This document shows, in pieces, positions 16,636 to 25,142 of a stretch of 64,000 nucleotides of DNA. Numbering within the stretch: position 1 is the first letter of the stretch; every line of letters starts with the position of its first letter. The notes beneath the pieces are model-generated. The model worked only from the letters and a program-made list of their open reading frames with translations, ran no database searches and was not told the origin of the DNA. Origin of the DNA: Plasmodiophora brassicae (lineage: Eukaryota; Endomyxa; Phytomyxea; Plasmodiophorida; Plasmodiophoridae); contig JASFAU010000001.1 of NCBI GenBank assembly GCA_039704465.1, positions 1,550,001 through 1,614,000 on the forward strand. Reading direction: 5' to 3'. The position numbers and the translations under genes are program-made.

Positions 16636-16949
16636 ATGGACGACATCGCGGGCGGCAATCGCGACGACGGCGAGAGCGGCCCGCAGATCGGGACGGCGCC
16701 CGGCTCCGCGTTCATCCCCACGCAGCTCGGCAAGCGCCGCCTGTCTGCCTCGTCTGCCGACGACGACGGCGCGCACGACAGCCCGCCATCGTCCCGGATA
16801 TCCCCAGGCGATGTCGCACGCGTGATCGCATCGTTGTCAGCGTCGGGCACCACCACCACCAGCACCGCGTTCCGGTCGCCGGCGGACGCCGACCCGCAGG
16901 ACCAGGACCAGCAGCAGCAGGCGCGGAGGCCCATGTGCCAGCACGGGCG

Positions 16950-17117
16950 AATCGGGACACTGGTGCGACCTCGAGTCCGCAGAGTGCCTTAGATCAGCAA
17001 TCATAGGGCGCCTCCCACATATACCGCGCAACACTGCCGTACGGCGTCCGTGGCGCACCAATCATACATTCTGCTATCTGGCCTTGTCTGGTCTTGTCCG
17101 TGTCCTGCGTGCTAATT
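16950..17117 (+). repeat. 5' LTR (168 bp)
   Basis: Begins AATCGGGACAC and ends GTGCTAATT. I could find no difference from the 3' LTR by eye. The ends are AAT...ATT and not the usual TG...CA. The boundary is fixed by the GGGCG duplication and by the polypurine tract before the 3' copy; a one- or two-base shift at the right end with a shorter duplication is also possible. Confidence 0.88.
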
Positions 17118-17138
17118 GGTTTTGGGCCCATCCCAAGC

Positions 17139-17215
17139 CTTACCCCTGTCCCTGTCCCCGTCCCTGTCCCCGTCCCTGTCCCTGTCCCTGCCCCAGTTCC
17201 CGTGTCCCGTGTCCC
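17139..17215 (+). repeat. CCCTGT-type hexamer repeat
   Basis: About a dozen degenerate six-base units (CCCTGT or CCCCGT) in the untranslated leader between the 5' LTR and gag. They make several frames open artificially upstream of the true gag start. Confidence 0.75.
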
Positions 17216-17308
17216 AGCCCGTGTCGCGATCCAGTTCGCGTTGTGACCGCCGCGCCCCACGCTCGGTTTGTACCCGTCCCTGTCCCCCTGCTCCCGCCGC
17301 CCGCCATA

Positions 17309-18255
17309 ATGGCGGAGGACTGGAACCAGCTCGTCACAAACCTGAACTCTCAGATCCAGCACTTGCAACAGCAACAACAGCAACAGCAGCAGCTTCTACA
17401 GCAACAGCACGATCAACTGCTACAACAGCAACAACTACTGCAGCAGCAACCAATCCCACAGCAGCACGGTGGCGCCCGCGAACCAAAAGTCAAGCTACGC
17501 CGGCCTATAACGGCAGCCTGTCGGAGCTTCGGGGTTTCCTTAACCAGGTCAAACTGGTCATTACCCAGCAGCCCAACACATACGCGACCGACGCTCAGAA
17601 GGTTGCATTGGTGGGCCAGCTGTTGGGTGGCGACGCCCTAAAGTGGTTTAACCCACTGTTCGAGAGGAATGACGACCTGATGAAGGACTTCAGCGCCTTC
17701 GTCTCCGCAATCAAGAGCAGATTCGGGGACCCGAACCTCGCAGAGACCGCGGCCCGCAAGCTCCAGCACCTGCGTCAGGGTCGAGGCACCGTCGCCCGCT
17801 TCGCCACAGAATTCCAGAACTTGGCGGCGGACGCGGGGTTCAACGACTCAGCCTGCCGACACATGTTCCGCGCAGCCCTGTCTCGGGACGTACAGTTCCT
17901 CCTGCTGTCCTTGCCTGTCGCGAAAACACTCGACGAGCTCGTCCAGCAGGCGATTCGCTGCGACAACCGTCTCTCCGAGCACAGATCGAACACCATGGTC
18001 CCAGCAGCACCAGCTGTTCCTGCCGTCGTCTCCGCATCAGCTGCCCCTCCCGTTGCCGCAACACCCCCGGCCGCCGCGATCGGGCCGGTTCCCATGATCA
18101 TCGACGCTGTGACCGGTGGCCCCCGCGCCTCGCTGACTGCCGAAGAGAAAGACCGCCGACGCCGTGAGGGCCTGTGCCTATACTGTGGAATGCCTGGCCA
18201 TATCGCGTCGACCTGTCCTGTGCGTCCACAGGGAAACGTCCCTCGACGTGGCTGA
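17309..18255 (+). CDS. gag: Retrotransposon Gag
   Basis: Starts at ATG 17309 (MAEDWNQLV), continues through a Gln-rich coiled coil (runs of CAG/CAA), and needs a one-base frame change near 17505 to join the body (YNGSLSELRGFLNQV). The body (FVSAIKSRFGDP, LRQGRGTVARFATEFQNLAA, FRAALSRDVQFLL) has the Retrotrans_gag pattern of Ty3/gypsy elements, not the UBN2-type Gag of copia elements. It ends with one CCHC zinc knuckle (CLYCGMPGHIASTC) that binds the RNA. The protein forms the virus-like particle. The upstream frame through the hexamer repeats is not taken as coding. Confidence 0.75.
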
Positions 18256-18750
18256 TGACCCGGTCGGTCGCCACGTCTCTCGCGAATACACAACGCGTTC
18301 CCCTCCAAAACTCCGACCGATTCCCACATGAAGTAATGATCTCTGCGTCCACCATTCCTCCAGAGCGCCCCGACCTTGTCCTAAGCATTGATGTGTCCCT
18401 GCTGCTCGACAACGGCAGGACTGTGCAGACGAAGGCACTCATCGACTCTGGAGCAACGAACGACTTCATTCACCGCGATCTCGTCCACTTGCACAATGTA
18501 CCTCGTTGAGAAACCTGCACCAGTTGACTTGGAGGTAATTGACGGGCGACGGCTGCCGAAAGTGTCAATGGAAACCGTCCCAGTTAGCCTCCGCATCGGC
18601 AACCACTCCTACTCGATCGTGCTGAACGTGATTGACTCCCCGCGATTCCCAGTCATACTCGGCATGACCTGGCTCACCAAACACAACCCGAGCATCAACT
18701 GGGCACACAGGACAATCGAGTTCCTCCGCACGCCCGACAACGAGTCAAGC
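18256..18750 (+). CDS. Retrotransposon aspartic protease (retropepsin)
   Basis: Read in the -1 frame relative to Gag: the active-site motif is KALIDSGATNDFIHRDL (D-S-G-A) at about 18432-18485. A second frame change near 18495 brings in the flap and C-terminal half, ending in FPVILGMTWLTKHNPSINW. The [VI]-[IL]-G-x-x-W-L-x-x-H-N-P-x-I-x-W signature is typical of Ty3/gypsy proteases. Copia proteases have W-x-x-D-S-G-[AS]-x-x-H instead. The protease would cleave the Gag-Pol polyprotein. The frame break may be a two-base deletion in a CT-rich tract. Confidence 0.7.
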
Positions 18751-21700
18751 GAATCCTCGACTCCAACCTCCGAAGGCACCATCACAACACTAACCCTGCA
18801 CGATGTCGACACAACACCCGAACGACCCGAATCCACTTCAGTCCCAGGAGCCTCGCCAACCGAACAGACACCGCCACCAGCAAACGCCAAGCGACGCCGC
18901 AAGTGGAAGCCCGAGATCCACGCCGATAACGACAAGGTACCTTACGCCGTTCCGCTTCCCGGGGATTGGAACCAAGCCCAGAGTCTCAAGCGGTGGCACC
19001 ACCGCCTCGGCCACCGTAACCTGCGTGACGTCATCCTGATGGCAAATCATGACCTTACCGAGTCCATGGAGATCCTGGCACAGAAGGTTGACAGGTTCTG
19101 CGAAGGGTGCGCTATCGCGAAAGCCAAGGAACGTCCTTTCCCCTCGGAGTCCAAAGAAAAACAGTGGAACGTGCTCGAGAGAATCGACGTCGACGAATGC
19201 GGACCGCTTCCCGTCGCCTCACTCAAAGGGGAGCGATACTTTATCACGTTCACGGAATTTGCAACCAGGATGAAATTTACCTTCCTGTTGCACCACAAGA
19301 ACCAGGCGCTGACCAAGTTCAAGGAGCTCAAGACTCGAATTGAGAATCGCCTGGAGAAATCCATTAAGATCCTCTTCGGCGACAACGATGGGGTATTCAT
19401 CAACAACGAGTTCAAGGCGTTCTTGCAGGACAACGGGATCGAGTGGAGATCAACGGTGGAGTATTCCTCCAAGCAGAACGGTGTCTCCGAACGGGGACAC
19501 CTGACGCTTATGGACTCCGGTCGCGCAATGCTCGTACACGCAAGGCTCCCCAAGCAGTTCTGGGGACCCGCAATTCTGACTGCCAGCCACGTCCATAATC
19601 TCTGCCCCCACCCACGCGATCCCTCGACCACGCCCCATGAAATGCTGTCGCGCTCGAAACCTGATATCCGCTATCTTAGAACGTTCGGGTGCGACGCATA
19701 TGGCTACGTCCCGTCCAGCCAGAGAACGAAGCTGGACCCACGCGCCGTGAAAGGCATCTTCATCGGGTATGCAGACCACCAGAAAGGGTACGTCCTCTAT
19801 CACCCTTCGTCCGGCCTGATCAAGGTGTACCGCAGCGTGACGTTCAGCGAAGACAGCTTCGGCGGCCGCAGTGCGGACGACGCCCTCGCCGATCCCGAGG
19901 AACCTGAGTCTGGATACGACAGCGACTACGTTCCCTCCGGTGACGAACCCGCTGTCGAGGGGGCGCAGTCCGCCGCAGGCCCCAGTGAGGATCCGCGACC
20001 TCCCACCGAACGAGCCCGGCGTCTCTCCCGCAAGCCAGACCGTTTAGGAGATCCCGTCCACCACGCCTGGATCGCGTCCCTGCAACCTACCAACGACGAT
20101 CCTATTCACCACATGTGGATAGGTTCCACACATCAATGCGACGACGACGATGACGCCGCGCTCAATGCAGATGACCCCGACACTCCAAACACATATGAAG
20201 ACGCCATGGCAAGTCCCGAGGCAGAGTTCTGGACTAAGGCGATGGCCGATGAATTGAAGAGCCTGAAACAGCACAAGACATGGGAAGCTGTGGAGCGACT
20301 ACCCGTCGGGGCACGCCCCATCGGATGCCGCTGGGTCTACAAGCGCAAGATCACCAAGTCAAGTCAGATCCCGCCGGACACCACCTGGGTTCTCCGCCAT
20401 GACCCCGACGGTGTCACCTCCTACCGGTACAAGGCTCGACTATGCATACTCGGCTACAGACAGCGCCAGGGGATCGACTACACGAACACCTATGCGCCAT
20501 CGTCCGGAGCGACATCCTCCGTCTAGTACTAGCCATGTCCGTCCAAGACAAGGAGATCATCGCCGAGCAGATGGATGTGATGACCGCATTCCTCAACGCC
20601 CATCTCACCGAAGAGATCTACATGGACTCCCCGAAAGGGATGAAGGCCAGAACCCGTTTCGTCAAGCTCCTACGATCGATCTATGGCCTGAAACAGGCCC
20701 CAAGAGAATGGTTCAAGGTCATCGACGCCTTCCTCGTTAACGAATGCGGGTTCCAACGAGCCAAGTCCGCATCGTGCTTGTACTTCAAACGTGGTCCAAC
20801 TGGACGGCTCGTCATTGTTGGGGTCTACGTCGATGATATTCCCATCGTCGGACATCCCGAACTCGTACAGGAAACCAAGTCAGCCCTCTCGAAGAGATTC
20901 AAGATGTCGGACATGGGAGAGCTTCAATCAGTCATTGGCTTCGACGTCGATAGACAAGGTGGATCGGTGTTCCTGTCGCAGGAACGCTACACGAAAACTA
21001 TCGACACCTACGGCATGGCCGAATCGCGCCCCGTCTCGACACCGGCAGATGCGAACTTGAAGTTATCCACATCACTGTGCCCGCAGAACCAGGCCGATCG
21101 CGAACTTGCCGCCTTAGAAGGCCAGCGCATCAACTATCGAGCAGCGGTAGGTCACCTAATGTGGCTGCTGCACACCCGGCCAGACATCGCCTATGCGGTG
21201 AACGAGGTCTCCCGATACGTGCAAGACCCAGGGCCAGCGCACTTCGTCGCGCTGAAGCGAGTCTTCAGGTACCTCAACGGCACTCGCAACTACGGCCTCC
21301 TGTTCGAAGGAGGTGGGGAAACGGCCACACCGCTCCTGGTCGGCTACTCCGATTCTGATTGGGGTGGAGACCTCGACACACGACGATCGACTTCGGGGTG
21401 CGTGTTCCTTCTGAATGGCTGCCCGGTTTCATTTCGCTCTAAGAAGCAGACCACGGTCGCGTTATCGTCGTGCGAGGCGGAGACGGTGGCGTCAACACTC
21501 GCGGCAACAGAAGGCGTCTGGTTGCGCAATGTGCTGGACGAACTAGGTTTTCCACAAGCTCAGCCTACACCTCTACACGTAGACAATCAGGGGCGATCGC
21601 GTTCGCCAACAGCGAAATCAACCACAGCAAGATGAAACATCTCGCGCTCAAGGACCACTTCGTCAGAGAACTGGTGGCATCCAACCAGATCAAGGTGCAC

Positions 21701-21892
21701 TACGTCCGCTCGTGCGAGAACCTCGCCGACATCTTCACGAAACCGCTCGGAAAGCACAAGTTCGTAGAATTCCGTGCGGCCCTCAAGTGCGTACCGCATC
21801 CCCACATGAACTTGGACTCTCAGGTCGAGGGGGGGAATCGGGACACTGGTGCGACCTCGAGTCCGCAGAGTGCCTTAGATCAGCAATCATAG
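18751..21892 (+). CDS. pol: Retrotransposon integrase, reverse transcriptase and RNase H (copia type)
   Basis: After a Pro/Ser linker the copia-type order follows. GAG-pre-integrase zinc module: WHHRLGHRNL...CEGCAIAKAKERPF (about 18990-19135). Integrase core with D (RIDVDECG), D (FGDNDG) and E (NGVSERGH). Ty1/copia RVT_2 reverse transcriptase with GCRWVYKRK, DVMTAFLNA and YVDD (20829-20840). RNase H with SDSDWGGD, STSGCVF and LSSCEAE. One-base frame breaks occur at about 20500 (before RSDILRLVLA) and 21590 (in a G run, before IAFANSEIN). Integrase before RT is the defining gene order of Ty1/copia. If the breaks are real, this copy cannot make full Pol. Confidence 0.85.
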
Positions 21893-22003
21893 GGCGCCTC
21901 CCACATATACCGCGCAACACTGCCGTACGGCGTCCGTGGCGCACCAATCATACATTCTGCTATCTGGCCTTGTCTGGTCTTGTCCGTGTCCTGCGTGCTA
22001 ATT
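21836..22003 (+). repeat. 3' LTR (168 bp)
   Basis: Second copy of the LTR, base-for-base the same as 16950-17117 as far as I can read. It is preceded by the G-rich polypurine tract used for plus-strand priming and followed by the second GGGCG target copy. Confidence 0.88.
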
Positions 22004-22572
22004 GGGCGGCGCCCGTACTTCTGCAAGGAGTGCCCGGGGCGGGGCATCTGCGAGCACGGCAAGCGCAGGCACTCGTGCAAGAGGTGCGCGTCGGCGACCT
22101 GCGCGCACGGCGTGCCGTGCACGGCCTGTCCGGAGTGCCGCCGGGGGTTCTCCATCTGCCCCCACGGGCGCGTCAAGACGCAGTGCCGCGACTGCGGCGG
22201 CACGTCGATCTGCGTGCACGGCAGGTCGGCGGCGTCCGGCGCTCGTCGCCTGATGGCACTCAGCAGCGCTGATGACGTCCTTGCAGGCAACGGGCCGGGT
22301 GCCGGGATTGTGGCGGGTCGTCGATCTGTCACCACGGGAAGCAGAAATCCAAGTGCAAGGACTGCGGCGGGTCGTCGATCTGCGTCCACGGCCGCCAACG
22401 GCATACGTGCCGGGTGTGCAACCCGTCCGCCTACTGCCAGCACGACCGCAAGCGCGCGTTCTGCAAGGAGTGTGGCGGGATCGCCATCTGTGTCCACGTG
22501 AAGAACAAGTACCGTTGCGTCCAGTGCCGGGCGGCACGCCTGGCGGCCGCCACCGGCGGCACCGTGCAATGA

Positions 22573-22901
22573 GACCGGCCCCGTTGCGCAAACGACTCCG
22601 TCCTTGACAGTAAAGGCATTCTCGCGTGCATTTATCTCTCGTGCTGGGCGAGGTGCTCTAGTGGAACCCCGGCGACCGCCCTGGGCGGGGTGCGACCTGT
22701 GGCTGTGGCGCGTCACACAGTCACAGGGCGGGTCGGCACGCAGGTAATGGGCGCCTCCGTCCGCACCCGTGACCCTTAAGTTGACATCAGCGATGAGTCA
22801 ACGGCCTACAGCGTGAACAGGGCGCGTCCACTGTATAAGTTTCCCTCGATTATCGACAGCGACGGTGCGTGTCGTCGACTGCACTTCACATCCCAATACC
22901 A
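22573..22901. promoter_or_regulatory. Intergenic region with TATA-like box
   Basis: No coding exon is seen. A TATAAG sequence at about 22835-22840 lies some 65 bp before the chosen start of the vWD-like gene and could be its TATA element. Confidence 0.35.
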
Positions 22902-25142
22902 ATGCAGGCCCGACTATATCAGTTCATATGCGTCGTACTGGCGGGTACGACCGTCCAGTCCGCGTGCCAGTGCACCATGTCGGGCGACAACCATATCGTG
23001 ATGTGCGACGGGCAGACACGGTACGACTGGCAGGGCGAGGGCCTGTACCAGATGTTCATATCCAATGACATCCACGCCGAATGCGCCACGTCGGCCGTGT
23101 TCCCCAACAACGCGACCAGTATCCAGGTGGCGTCCATCGACTGGTGCCGTGTCAGGATCACGCGTGGATCGTGCGACCTCGTCGTCCAGACCGACCTGGA
23201 CGCCGATGGGCTCAACGTGAACGGCGCCCTGCTAGACAAGGACGCCATCCAGGCGTTCAACGACAACCACGGCGACGAGGGCGTGCGCCTGCGAGTCGAC
23301 CGCGACAACGCCATCTCGATCAAGGTGTCGTCGTCGTCGGGCGACGTGACGCTCGTCCTCGGCAAGTTCCTGTTCGGCGTGTCGGCGCCCGCCCTGACAC
23401 AGTGCTCGGGCATGTGCGGGTCCTGCTCCAACCAGTCGGGGACGCCGCCACCGGCCCCCGGCGTCCTCGCGCAGCGGTATCACACGACGAGCGTCGTCAC
23501 GTCGTCGAACCTGTGCCGCGTCGGGTCGGTCAACGCGACGTTGCCCAACGTGTTCATCCCCGACTTCAACGCGCCGAACGACACGCTGGTGCCGAGCGGG
23601 TCGGTGGCGTTCGAATCCGAGAAGGTCATGCGTCGGGTGGTGCACCAGTGCCTGTGCGGGCAGGACGAGCGGCGCATGCAGACCGACAAGGCGTTCGGCG
23701 CCAGCGTCGAGGCCTGCGTCTTCGACAAGGCGATCGGGGCCGGCGCCGAACACATCGCCAAGTCCAACCTGGACATGTACGCCGCCCTGCACAACGTCCC
23801 GCTGAACACGACGGGCATCCTCGACGAAGTCGTCATGAAGCCGCTCGCCGCCCTGGGCGCCAACGAAGGCTGCACGTACGAGTTCGACCTTCGCGGTACC
23901 GGCCCAATGGCGTCGTCGTCCCGGTTCAAGGCGCGCGGGCAGCGGTACCACGCGTCGGGCGTCGAGACGTCGGCGGCCCTGTTCGGCAAGGTGGTGGCGG
24001 CCGAGAAGATGAAGGTCAAGTTCGAGCTGGAGGTCCCCGTTGTCGTCATTCAACCCATGCAGCGGCAAACGCAGCGTCATCAGCAAGGCGATCTGGACGG
24101 CGGCGACGACCGCGACGAGGCAGACGGCGGGCAACGGTCTGTGATCCCCATCGCGCAGACCAGCGCGTCGAGTAGCGCCCAAACTTCGACGTCGCCGGCT
24201 CCTCCTTCGTCGTCGACGAACGCGACCAGTTCGTCGCTGGCCCCTAGAGCGGCAGCGAACGTGTCGGTGCCGACGCCAGCGCCGACGACGGCCAAACCGA
24301 CGGTCAAGCAGATCCAGATTGTCACGATGATGAGGGAACGCAGCGTGCCACAGGCCGCGTTGCCGACAGCAACGGCGCCTCCGACCATGTCGCCAATGGA
24401 GCAACAGGCGGTGCGGGCGTCGCTGTCGCAAGCAGTGGCAGGTCTGTCGCCGTCGTCGGGTCCTGCACCGGTGCCTGTTCCGGTCGGTCCTGCTGTGGCG
24501 GCTGCGGTCCCCGCTATGGCAGCGGCGCCGGTGACGATGCCGATGATGATGGGGGCCACCATGCCGGCGGTCGTCCAGCAGGCGCCGGAGCCGTTCGAAA
24601 TGGAGATGCGGATCACGCCCGACCAGCAACGACGTCTGCAGCAGGAGCAGGCCACCCAGCTGCAGGCGCTGCAGCAGAAGCAGAGGCAGGACCGGCAGCG
24701 CCTGCTTGGGCAGCAGGCCCTGCAGCGCCAAGCGCTCAGCCGCCCCGTCAGCGTCGAGGTGCAGGCGGCCGCAACCGCACCCGCTGCCCTGCTCGCCGTC
24801 CCGGTCGCCGGCGCCGCCATCAACGCTGGAGTGACGATGGGCGGAGGCGGATCCGGCGCGTTCGCCATGCCGAGAGGTGGCGTGCAGATGATGCAAAGTG
24901 GCGCCATGCAGGCGATGCAGAGCGGGGGCGCTGGTGCCAGCGCGGCCCAGACGACAGCGCCAGGCGTGCCCACATCGCAGGCGACGTCGGCGCCTGCTAC
25001 TGTCGCGAATACGACGTCGGCGCCGGCGACGGCGGCGGCGTCCACGAGGCCGACGTACGCTCCCGTAACGAGTCCAGCGCCGAGCACCGGGCCCAGAAGT
25101 GGAGCAGGGACTGGCTCCGGCTCCGGCAACCCGACGTTATAA
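22902..25142 (+). CDS. Secreted vWD-like protein with long Ala/Gln/Pro-rich tail
   Basis: The frame is open from an ATG at 22869. The start at 22902 is preferred because it opens with a signal peptide (MQARLYQFICVVLAGTTVQS); this gives about 746 residues without an intron. Residues about 20-185 resemble a von Willebrand type D domain: CQCTMSGDNHIVMCDGQ, then LYQMF, and CSGMCGSCS at the end. A second Cys-containing globular part follows (about 190-380, with VHQCLCGQDERRM). The last 350 residues are low-complexity Ser/Thr/Ala/Pro with a Gln-rich helix (QQRRLQQEQATQLQALQQ). It is probably an adhesive or wall-associated extracellular protein. The vWD call is by eye. Codon use matches the neighbours. 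An antisense frame of over 500 codons is a GC-bias shadow. Confidence 0.7.
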   Translation: MQARLYQFICVVLAGTTVQSACQCTMSGDNHIVMCDGQTRYDWQGEGLYQMFISNDIHAECATSAVFPNNATSIQVASIDWCRVRITRGSCDLVVQTDLDADGLNVNGALLDKDAIQAFNDNHGDEGVRLRVDRDNAISIKVSSSSGDVTLVLGKFLFGVSAPALTQCSGMCGSCSNQSGTPPPAPGVLAQRYHTTSVVTSSNLCRVGSVNATLPNVFIPDFNAPNDTLVPSGSVAFESEKVMRRVVHQCLCGQDERRMQTDKAFGASVEACVFDKAIGAGAEHIAKSNLDMYAALHNVPLNTTGILDEVVMKPLAALGANEGCTYEFDLRGTGPMASSSRFKARGQRYHASGVETSAALFGKVVAAEKMKVKFELEVPVVVIQPMQRQTQRHQQGDLDGGDDRDEADGGQRSVIPIAQTSASSSAQTSTSPAPPSSSTNATSSSLAPRAAANVSVPTPAPTTAKPTVKQIQIVTMMRERSVPQAALPTATAPPTMSPMEQQAVRASLSQAVAGLSPSSGPAPVPVPVGPAVAAAVPAMAAAPVTMPMMMGATMPAVVQQAPEPFEMEMRITPDQQRRLQQEQATQLQALQQKQRQDRQRLLGQQALQRQALSRPVSVEVQAAATAPAALLAVPVAGAAINAGVTMGGGGSGAFAMPRGGVQMMQSGAMQAMQSGGAGASAAQTTAPGVPTSQATSAPATVANTTSAPATAAASTRPTYAPVTSPAPSTGPRSGAGTGSGSGNPTL

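Follow-up and report, generated by a model that had tools for sequence, protein, structure and literature searches.

Plasmodiophora brassicae carries a family of long terminal repeat (LTR) retrotransposons that unites parts of the two superfamilies Ty1/copia and Ty3/gypsy, which are treated as separate, their domains travelling together. The copy from which we started lies in the window, the 64,000-nucleotide stretch C1:1550001-1614000. The clade to which it belongs has a copia backbone, comprising integrase, reverse transcriptase (RT) and RNase H and perhaps the LTR and primer site, on which gag and protease have been replaced from a Ty3/gypsy element; we put the probability of this reading at about 0.88. 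An earlier note on the window, made from its letters alone, had proposed a mosaic of gypsy-type gag and protease with copia-type integrase, RT and RNase H, and profiles, trees and fold comparison now agree on that make-up. The genome searched comprised 21 contigs and 25,344,181 bases.

Structure of the window element

The window copy is a complete insertion at 16950-22003, bounded by LTRs that are identical over 168/168 bases and flanked on both sides by the target site duplication (TSD) GGGCG. The earlier note had given 17309..21835 as its span; those limits stop short of the LTRs, while its view that both halves belong to one element between one identical LTR pair holds. The features are as follows (window coordinates).

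16945..16949, no strand: left TSD, GGGCG; 5-bp duplications also flank the other six LTR-paired copies
16950..17117, + strand: 5′ LTR, 168 bp, ends AATC...AATT, identical to 21836-22003
17118..17132, + strand: candidate primer binding site GGTTTTGGGCCCATC, complementary at 14/15 positions to the tRNA-Met(CAT) anticodon arm
17309..18255, + strand: gag, gypsy type by profiles, ATG at 17309; Gln-rich N end, capsid (Retrotrans_gag, DUF4939, Ty3_capsid) and CCHC knuckle at 18175-18216
18231..18277, + strand: candidate -1 frameshift signal, G GGA AAC, 7-base spacer and 8-bp hairpin (18245-18277)
18435..18732, + strand: protease (RVP_2), gypsy type by profiles and tree
18733..18978, + strand: linker with the gypsy/copia seam; the recent cassette swap of L021, L022 and L024 ends here, at 18932/18938
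18979..19122, + strand: pre-integrase domain (gag_pre-integrs), copia type by profile
19189..19860, + strand: integrase core (rve, under cut-off) and SH3_retrovirus, copia type by profile
20179..21134, + strand: RT (RVT_2), copia type by profile, YVDD at 20826-20837
21135..21838, + strand: RNase H, copia type
21827..21835, + strand: polypurine tract adjoining the 3′ LTR
21836..22003, + strand: 3′ LTR, 168 bp, identical to the 5′ LTR
22004..22008, no strand: right TSD, GGGCG

The domain order is thus gag, protease, linker, pre-integrase, integrase, SH3_retrovirus, RVT_2, RNase H and polypurine tract. The hallmarks of an LTR retrotransposon are present: an LTR pair, a target duplication, a polypurine tract and, by complementarity only, a primer site. 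The LTRs end in AATC...AATT, not TG...CA, and these ends are fixed by the 5-bp TSDs of seven copies. From the TSDs and identical LTRs alone, we infer that the element has transposed. Relative to other copies, its frames are broken in gag (~17461-17500), protease (~18502), RT (~20499) and RNase H (~21590), so the window copy probably cannot make its own proteins. The earlier note had raised neither this breakage nor two points taken up below, a possible internal cassette with two seams and a recent swap between subfamilies.

The same seam recurs in the genome and beyond

The protease match ends at ~18732 and the pre-integrase match begins at ~18979, an interval that contains the linker (~18750-18960) in which the earlier note had placed the seam. 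Seven copies have both an LTR pair and a 5-bp TSD: the window copy, L019 (C6), L020 (C14), L021 (C15), L022 (C1), and L023 and L024 (C17). In all seven the matches follow the order gag, protease, integrase, RT, RNase H, and the seam is shared. L019 has unbroken gag (319 amino acids, aa) and pol (1307 aa) frames, and the other LTR-paired copies carry frame changes in one part or another. A search with the window LTR reached 15 places, 13 of them full-length at 99-100%, one at 91% (C16) and one partial (C13). In the fetched stretches, L030 consists of RT and RNase H only and L026 of gag only. A distant member, L028, combines a gypsy protease with copia integrase and RT, and one frame of this locus equals the P. 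brassicae protein PBRA_009203 in 418/420 residues.

Proteins from other contigs bear the seam as well: P0001 (53% identical to L019), P0002 (47%), P0061, which begins inside the protease, P0062, P0083 and P0101. Protease and integrase lie in a single open frame not only in L019 but also, over 412-1126 aa, in P0001, P0002, P0062, P0083 and P0101, the last of which joins gag knuckle, gypsy protease and copia pre-integrase on a 48.7-kb contig. Because these proteins share the protease-integrase seam, it is no assembly artefact. The gag P0045 and the pol P0061 both come from a 10556-base contig of the same source, and we infer that this is one contig. P0063, a member of the RT clade described below, has the copia part only. 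The protein searches scored 7992, 7995 and 7997 candidates sharing most words; in IMG/VR, none of 64 pattern matches was confirmed as a relative.

Gag and protease are of gypsy type

The gag body motif LRQGRGTVARFATEFQNLAA (17770-17829), the CCHC knuckle and the protease motifs ALIDSGATNDFI (18435-18470) and VILGMTWLTKHNPSINW (18652-18702), on which the earlier note had based its assignment, are all present. In the window gag, Retrotrans_gag (3.4e-13) and DUF4939 and Ty3_capsid (2.8e-9) score above their Pfam cut-offs and zf-CCHC below its own (13.6 vs 20.8 bits); in the protease, RVP_2 is above cut-off (4.7e-5) and covers the C part only. Neither the copia-type gag family PF14223 nor the copia-type protease family Pol_BBD (PF22936) gave a match in the window at E up to 1 or in L019 at E up to 0.5. 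A structure model of gag, the one model with which fold searches were run, has the PEG10 capsid as its nearest neighbor, and the PEG10 match is at 36% identity.

The protease gives the sharpest separation. Nine chimeric proteases scored 90-140 bits against a gypsy-only profile and at most 9.9 bits against a copia-only profile, a gap of ~90-130 bits for each, and in profile comparison they share 38% identity with living gypsy proteases. In the trees the chimeric proteases did not fall among copia, a placement that, according to the earlier note, would have refuted its proposal. The protease tree was built without P0035 and the N-truncated P0061, with 20 copia proteins hand-picked from search matches. 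The motif rule missed the resident copia proteases of L027, L029, L032, L035 and L036, which later served as profile members (five in the scoring of the nine chimeras, three in that of L031, a copia element described below).

The ten resident gypsy proteases group as a clade (100/96) that adjoins eight of the nine chimeras, so the donor may have been of the resident type. The join is weak (81/71), and the idea is tempered by the gag search, which reaches gypsy places, so called from nearby RVP_2 matches, through the C-terminal knuckle part only (~34-50% identity).

Integrase, RT and RNase H are of copia type

WHHRLGHRN (18994-19020) and YVDD, both quoted in the earlier note, were found as described. 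The pre-integrase family gag_pre-integrs scores 1.4e-7 in the window (31.7 bits, cut-off 28.4) and lies just under cut-off in L019 (27.7 bits); SH3_retrovirus reaches 8.7e-26 (90.1 bits) in the window, rve stays below cut-off (26.5 vs 32.6 bits), and RVT_2 is found at 4.8e-40 in the window and 2.1e-58 in L019. In both copies the integrase lies upstream of RT, the copia order, and neither shows the gypsy order, with integrase after RT and RNase H. RVT_1 (PF00078) had no match in the window or L019 frames, and none of the 150 RVT_1 places listed, out of 203 candidates, fell inside the LTR pair of any copy.

In an RT-RNase H tree of 81 rows, all of which were kept on entry (P0033, P0034 and P0100-P0118 lay outside the sample), the ten chimeric rows group together as a single copia clade (97/79). 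The resident element L031 (C17:330147) joins this clade as its sister (100/100). Its protease is of copia type, scoring 43.9 bits against the copia profile with itself left out and 0.7 against the gypsy profile. Other resident copia frames that span the protease region match Pol_BBD, above cut-off in L027, L029, L032 and L036 and just below it in L035 (25.5 vs 27 bits); in L031 the match is weak (E 0.013). In what was searched, none of the full-length elements of the chimeric clade carried a copia gag, the other finding that the earlier note had named as contrary to its view; among elements with a copia protease, the sister comes nearest.

Both halves have been under purifying selection. Between L019 and L020, the ratio of nonsynonymous to synonymous change (dN/dS) comes to 0.16 for both gag and protease, 0.07 for integrase and 0.10 for both RT and RNase H; it is 0.17 for gag between L019 and L021 and, between L019 and L024, 0.09 for RT and 0.33 for protease, the last from few changes (dS 0.043). 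Both halves were kept working, which argues that the gypsy and copia parts function together.

A recent exchange of gag and protease between subfamilies

In piecewise comparison, L021, L022 and L024 match the window copy, L020 and L023 at 98-100% identity in the LTR and from integrase through RNase H, and at only ~77-86% over most of gag and protease. There, from ~0.8 kb on, they are instead 90-100% identical to L019. The analysis took in 527-529 informative sites within the first 2.7 kb, with 20000 permutations per copy. An L019-like block spans window coordinates 17453-18932, with switch points at 17450/17453 and 18932/18938; inside it 301 of 322-324 sites agree with L019, and outside it 198-199 of 205 agree with the window type. 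The observed pattern was reached in 0/20000 permutations for each copy. The three copies carry the gag and protease of another subfamily on the backbone of the window subfamily. Since they are 98-100% alike, the swap was probably a single event, in which either subfamily could have been the donor. Its right end falls in the same linker (18733-18978) that holds the old gypsy/copia seam.

In the best reading, gag and protease form an exchangeable cassette that was probably swapped through template switching. We lean slightly towards a broader proposal, that a copia lineage seen in several sources took this cassette from a gypsy element across the superfamily border and still exchanges it between subfamilies at nearly the same linker. 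If so, the linker would be a standing recombination point, and gypsy-type particles would be the place where a copia RT copies its RNAs. In the mechanism that we envisage, RNAs of two elements would be packaged in one particle, and RT would switch template in the 5′ leader or the N end of gag and again in the protease-integrase linker. Template switching in a shared particle could account for both the old and the recent exchange.

Alternative explanations

Several observations weigh against the replacement of gag and protease in a copia element. The support of the RT clade (97/79) is just below the starred level, with its bootstrap unsettled, and the copia RT tree, rooted at its midpoint with no gypsy root, is comb-like and weakly resolved. 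Gag is weaker evidence than protease: profile comparison finds the capsids of the two classes similar (hhalign 95.7%); L027, a resident element with a copia protease, has a weak Retrotrans_gag match (21.8 bits as protein; 28 bits, above cut-off, in another scan); and PF03732 stands beside copia families in the plant proteins P0081, P0091 and P0110. A Retrotrans_gag match by itself is not proof of gypsy origin. The gag frame of the sister L031 found no match in Pfam up to E 0.5, so that of its gag and protease only the protease speaks. In the protease tree the chimeric rows do not form one clade, and two trees are alike in this. The tRNA-Met primer string was not seen at the LTR edges examined, those of five resident copia elements and of one gypsy element. 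Finally, the evidence beyond this genome consists of proteins, with no whole element from another organism.

The scattered protease rows, together with a cassette that is demonstrably exchangeable, would suit several separate swaps, in which gypsy gag-protease entered the copia clade repeatedly from related donors. We regard this as less likely than not, though it is the strongest competitor: a single protease clade is not rejected (p-AU 0.172), and by RT the chimeras are one clade.

A much poorer case can be made for an ancestral mixture, in which an early copia element already had gypsy-like gag and protease and the other copia lineages changed. The comb-like, midpoint-rooted RT tree is compatible with it. 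Among the listed RVT_2 proteins, however, only P0001 and P0062 list a retroviral-type protease family and many others list PF22936; the sister protease is copia-type; and the 38% identity to living gypsy proteases seems too high for a divergence of that age.

That a gypsy fragment lies in or beside a copia element and is read as one with it is very improbable. Nesting does occur in this genome, where the gypsy stretch of L037, with 143-bp LTRs of its own, sits between copia parts; against it here stand the seven copies, at different sites, in which one LTR pair and a TSD enclose the shared seam, and the single frame through protease and integrase in L019, P0001, P0002, P0062, P0083 and P0101. 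Fast divergence or convergence of a copia gag and protease towards gypsy is hardly credible, for although the capsids share a fold and a resident copia gag matches Retrotrans_gag weakly, the gap of ~90-130 bits in each of nine proteases contradicts it for protease, and the gag Pfam scores and PEG10 match speak against it for gag.

Candidate frameshift and primer sites

Gag and pol occupy two frames related by a -1 step. The heptamer G GGA AAC at 18231 is in the gag frame at the gag-pol overlap and looks like a programmed -1 frameshift site; it is present in 7/8 copies examined and was not found in the form sought in L024. One pair of the hairpin stem reads A-U, G-U or G-C in three types. The fold energy is not unusual (z -1.28, -1.14, -1.28), and covariation is not significant, the one pair being reached in 355/500 shuffles among 3 distinct rows.

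The tRNA-Met(CAT) to which the candidate primer site is complementary is resident: tRNA-Met genes were found at three of four places (L052, L053 and L054) and not at L055. According to a review (PMC5371799), Drosophila copia is primed by a half-tRNA; for Ty5 the review cites work on priming from the initiator anticodon stem-loop. Since the resident copia elements examined lack the primer string, it is this literature that speaks for a copia origin of the site. The LTR and primer site likely belong to the copia side, by analogy with those elements, in which case the gypsy part would sit inside the element as a cassette with a seam on either side. In the proposed cycle, pol would be made by -1 frameshifting at 18231, DNA synthesis would start from a piece of tRNA-Met, as reported for Drosophila copia and yeast Ty5, the capsid would assemble like that of Ty3 or PEG10, and the copia integrase would insert the DNA.

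A match at C3:1290082 was considered as a primer tRNA gene and rejected, because ARAGORN found no tRNA there and gag pieces lie beside it. It belongs to an old rearranged relic of the family (C3:1289398-1290102), whose primer site matches tRNA-Met at 15/15 positions.

Comparison with known elements and implications

The element resembles Ty1/copia elements (Pseudoviridae) in having integrase before RT, the pre-integrase domain, SH3_retrovirus, RVT_2 and RNase H; it differs in its gag and protease, in the separate gag and pol frames and in its LTR ends. With Ty3/gypsy elements (Metaviridae) and PEG10-like gag it shares the Retrotrans_gag/DUF4939/Ty3_capsid gag, the RVP_2 protease and a capsid model nearest PEG10, but it has no RVT_1 match and its integrase precedes RT. 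Gmr1-like gypsy elements have mixed features and a copia-type domain order; there only the order is known to have changed, whereas here domains of both classes are present.

The candidate primer site at the tRNA-Met anticodon arm recalls the Drosophila copia and Ty5 cases (PMC5371799). Modular evolution is seen in the chromodomain of CoDi-I copia elements and the added RNase H of oomycete and plant gypsy elements, but in the captures described in PMC5348765 one domain was gained at a time, and no gag-protease cassette came from the other superfamily. Ancient recombination between plant Ty1/copia lineages has been suspected from domain trees, there within copia, in a survey that also tells of removing elements with chimerical signs as likely wrong predictions (PMC6317226). 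We found no description of a gypsy gag-protease in a copia element in the open-licence papers searched.

This family shows that two ancient retrotransposon classes can exchange working parts. The existence of such a clade suggests that particles of gypsy type are able to package a copia polymerase and integrase and to mature them, and that the RNAs of the two classes have met in one particle. Elements classified solely by their gag or protease profiles can end up in the wrong class, and pipelines that discard chimeric-looking elements as errors, a practice stated in the plant survey cited above (PMC6317226), may lose real ones. With a copia-protease sister in the same genome and a recent subfamily exchange, the event is open to direct study.

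Additional observations

The RNase H frame change at ~21590 is common to 5/8 copies (window, L021, L022, L024 and L030) and lies at a homopolymer of five bases; a working copy may have mobilized broken ones in trans, or the same assembly error may have recurred. In L031 (1058-5827), gag and pol are separated by one in-frame stop, and an LTR pair was sought and none found. The gag of L027 (1742-5977) weakly matches PNMA as well as Retrotrans_gag, and its near twin L029 has no such match. All ten resident gypsy proteases fetched (L039-L048) read DCG where DSG or DTG is usual. In the gypsy stretch of L037 (3829-6803), whose LTRs are identical, a single frame of 931 aa contains the knuckle and protease and has no RT match. 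To the right of the window element, at 22869-25142, lies an open frame of 757 aa with a low-complexity tail, and an RVT_2 fragment is located at C1:1548344-1548724, ~1.3 kb outside the left end of the window.

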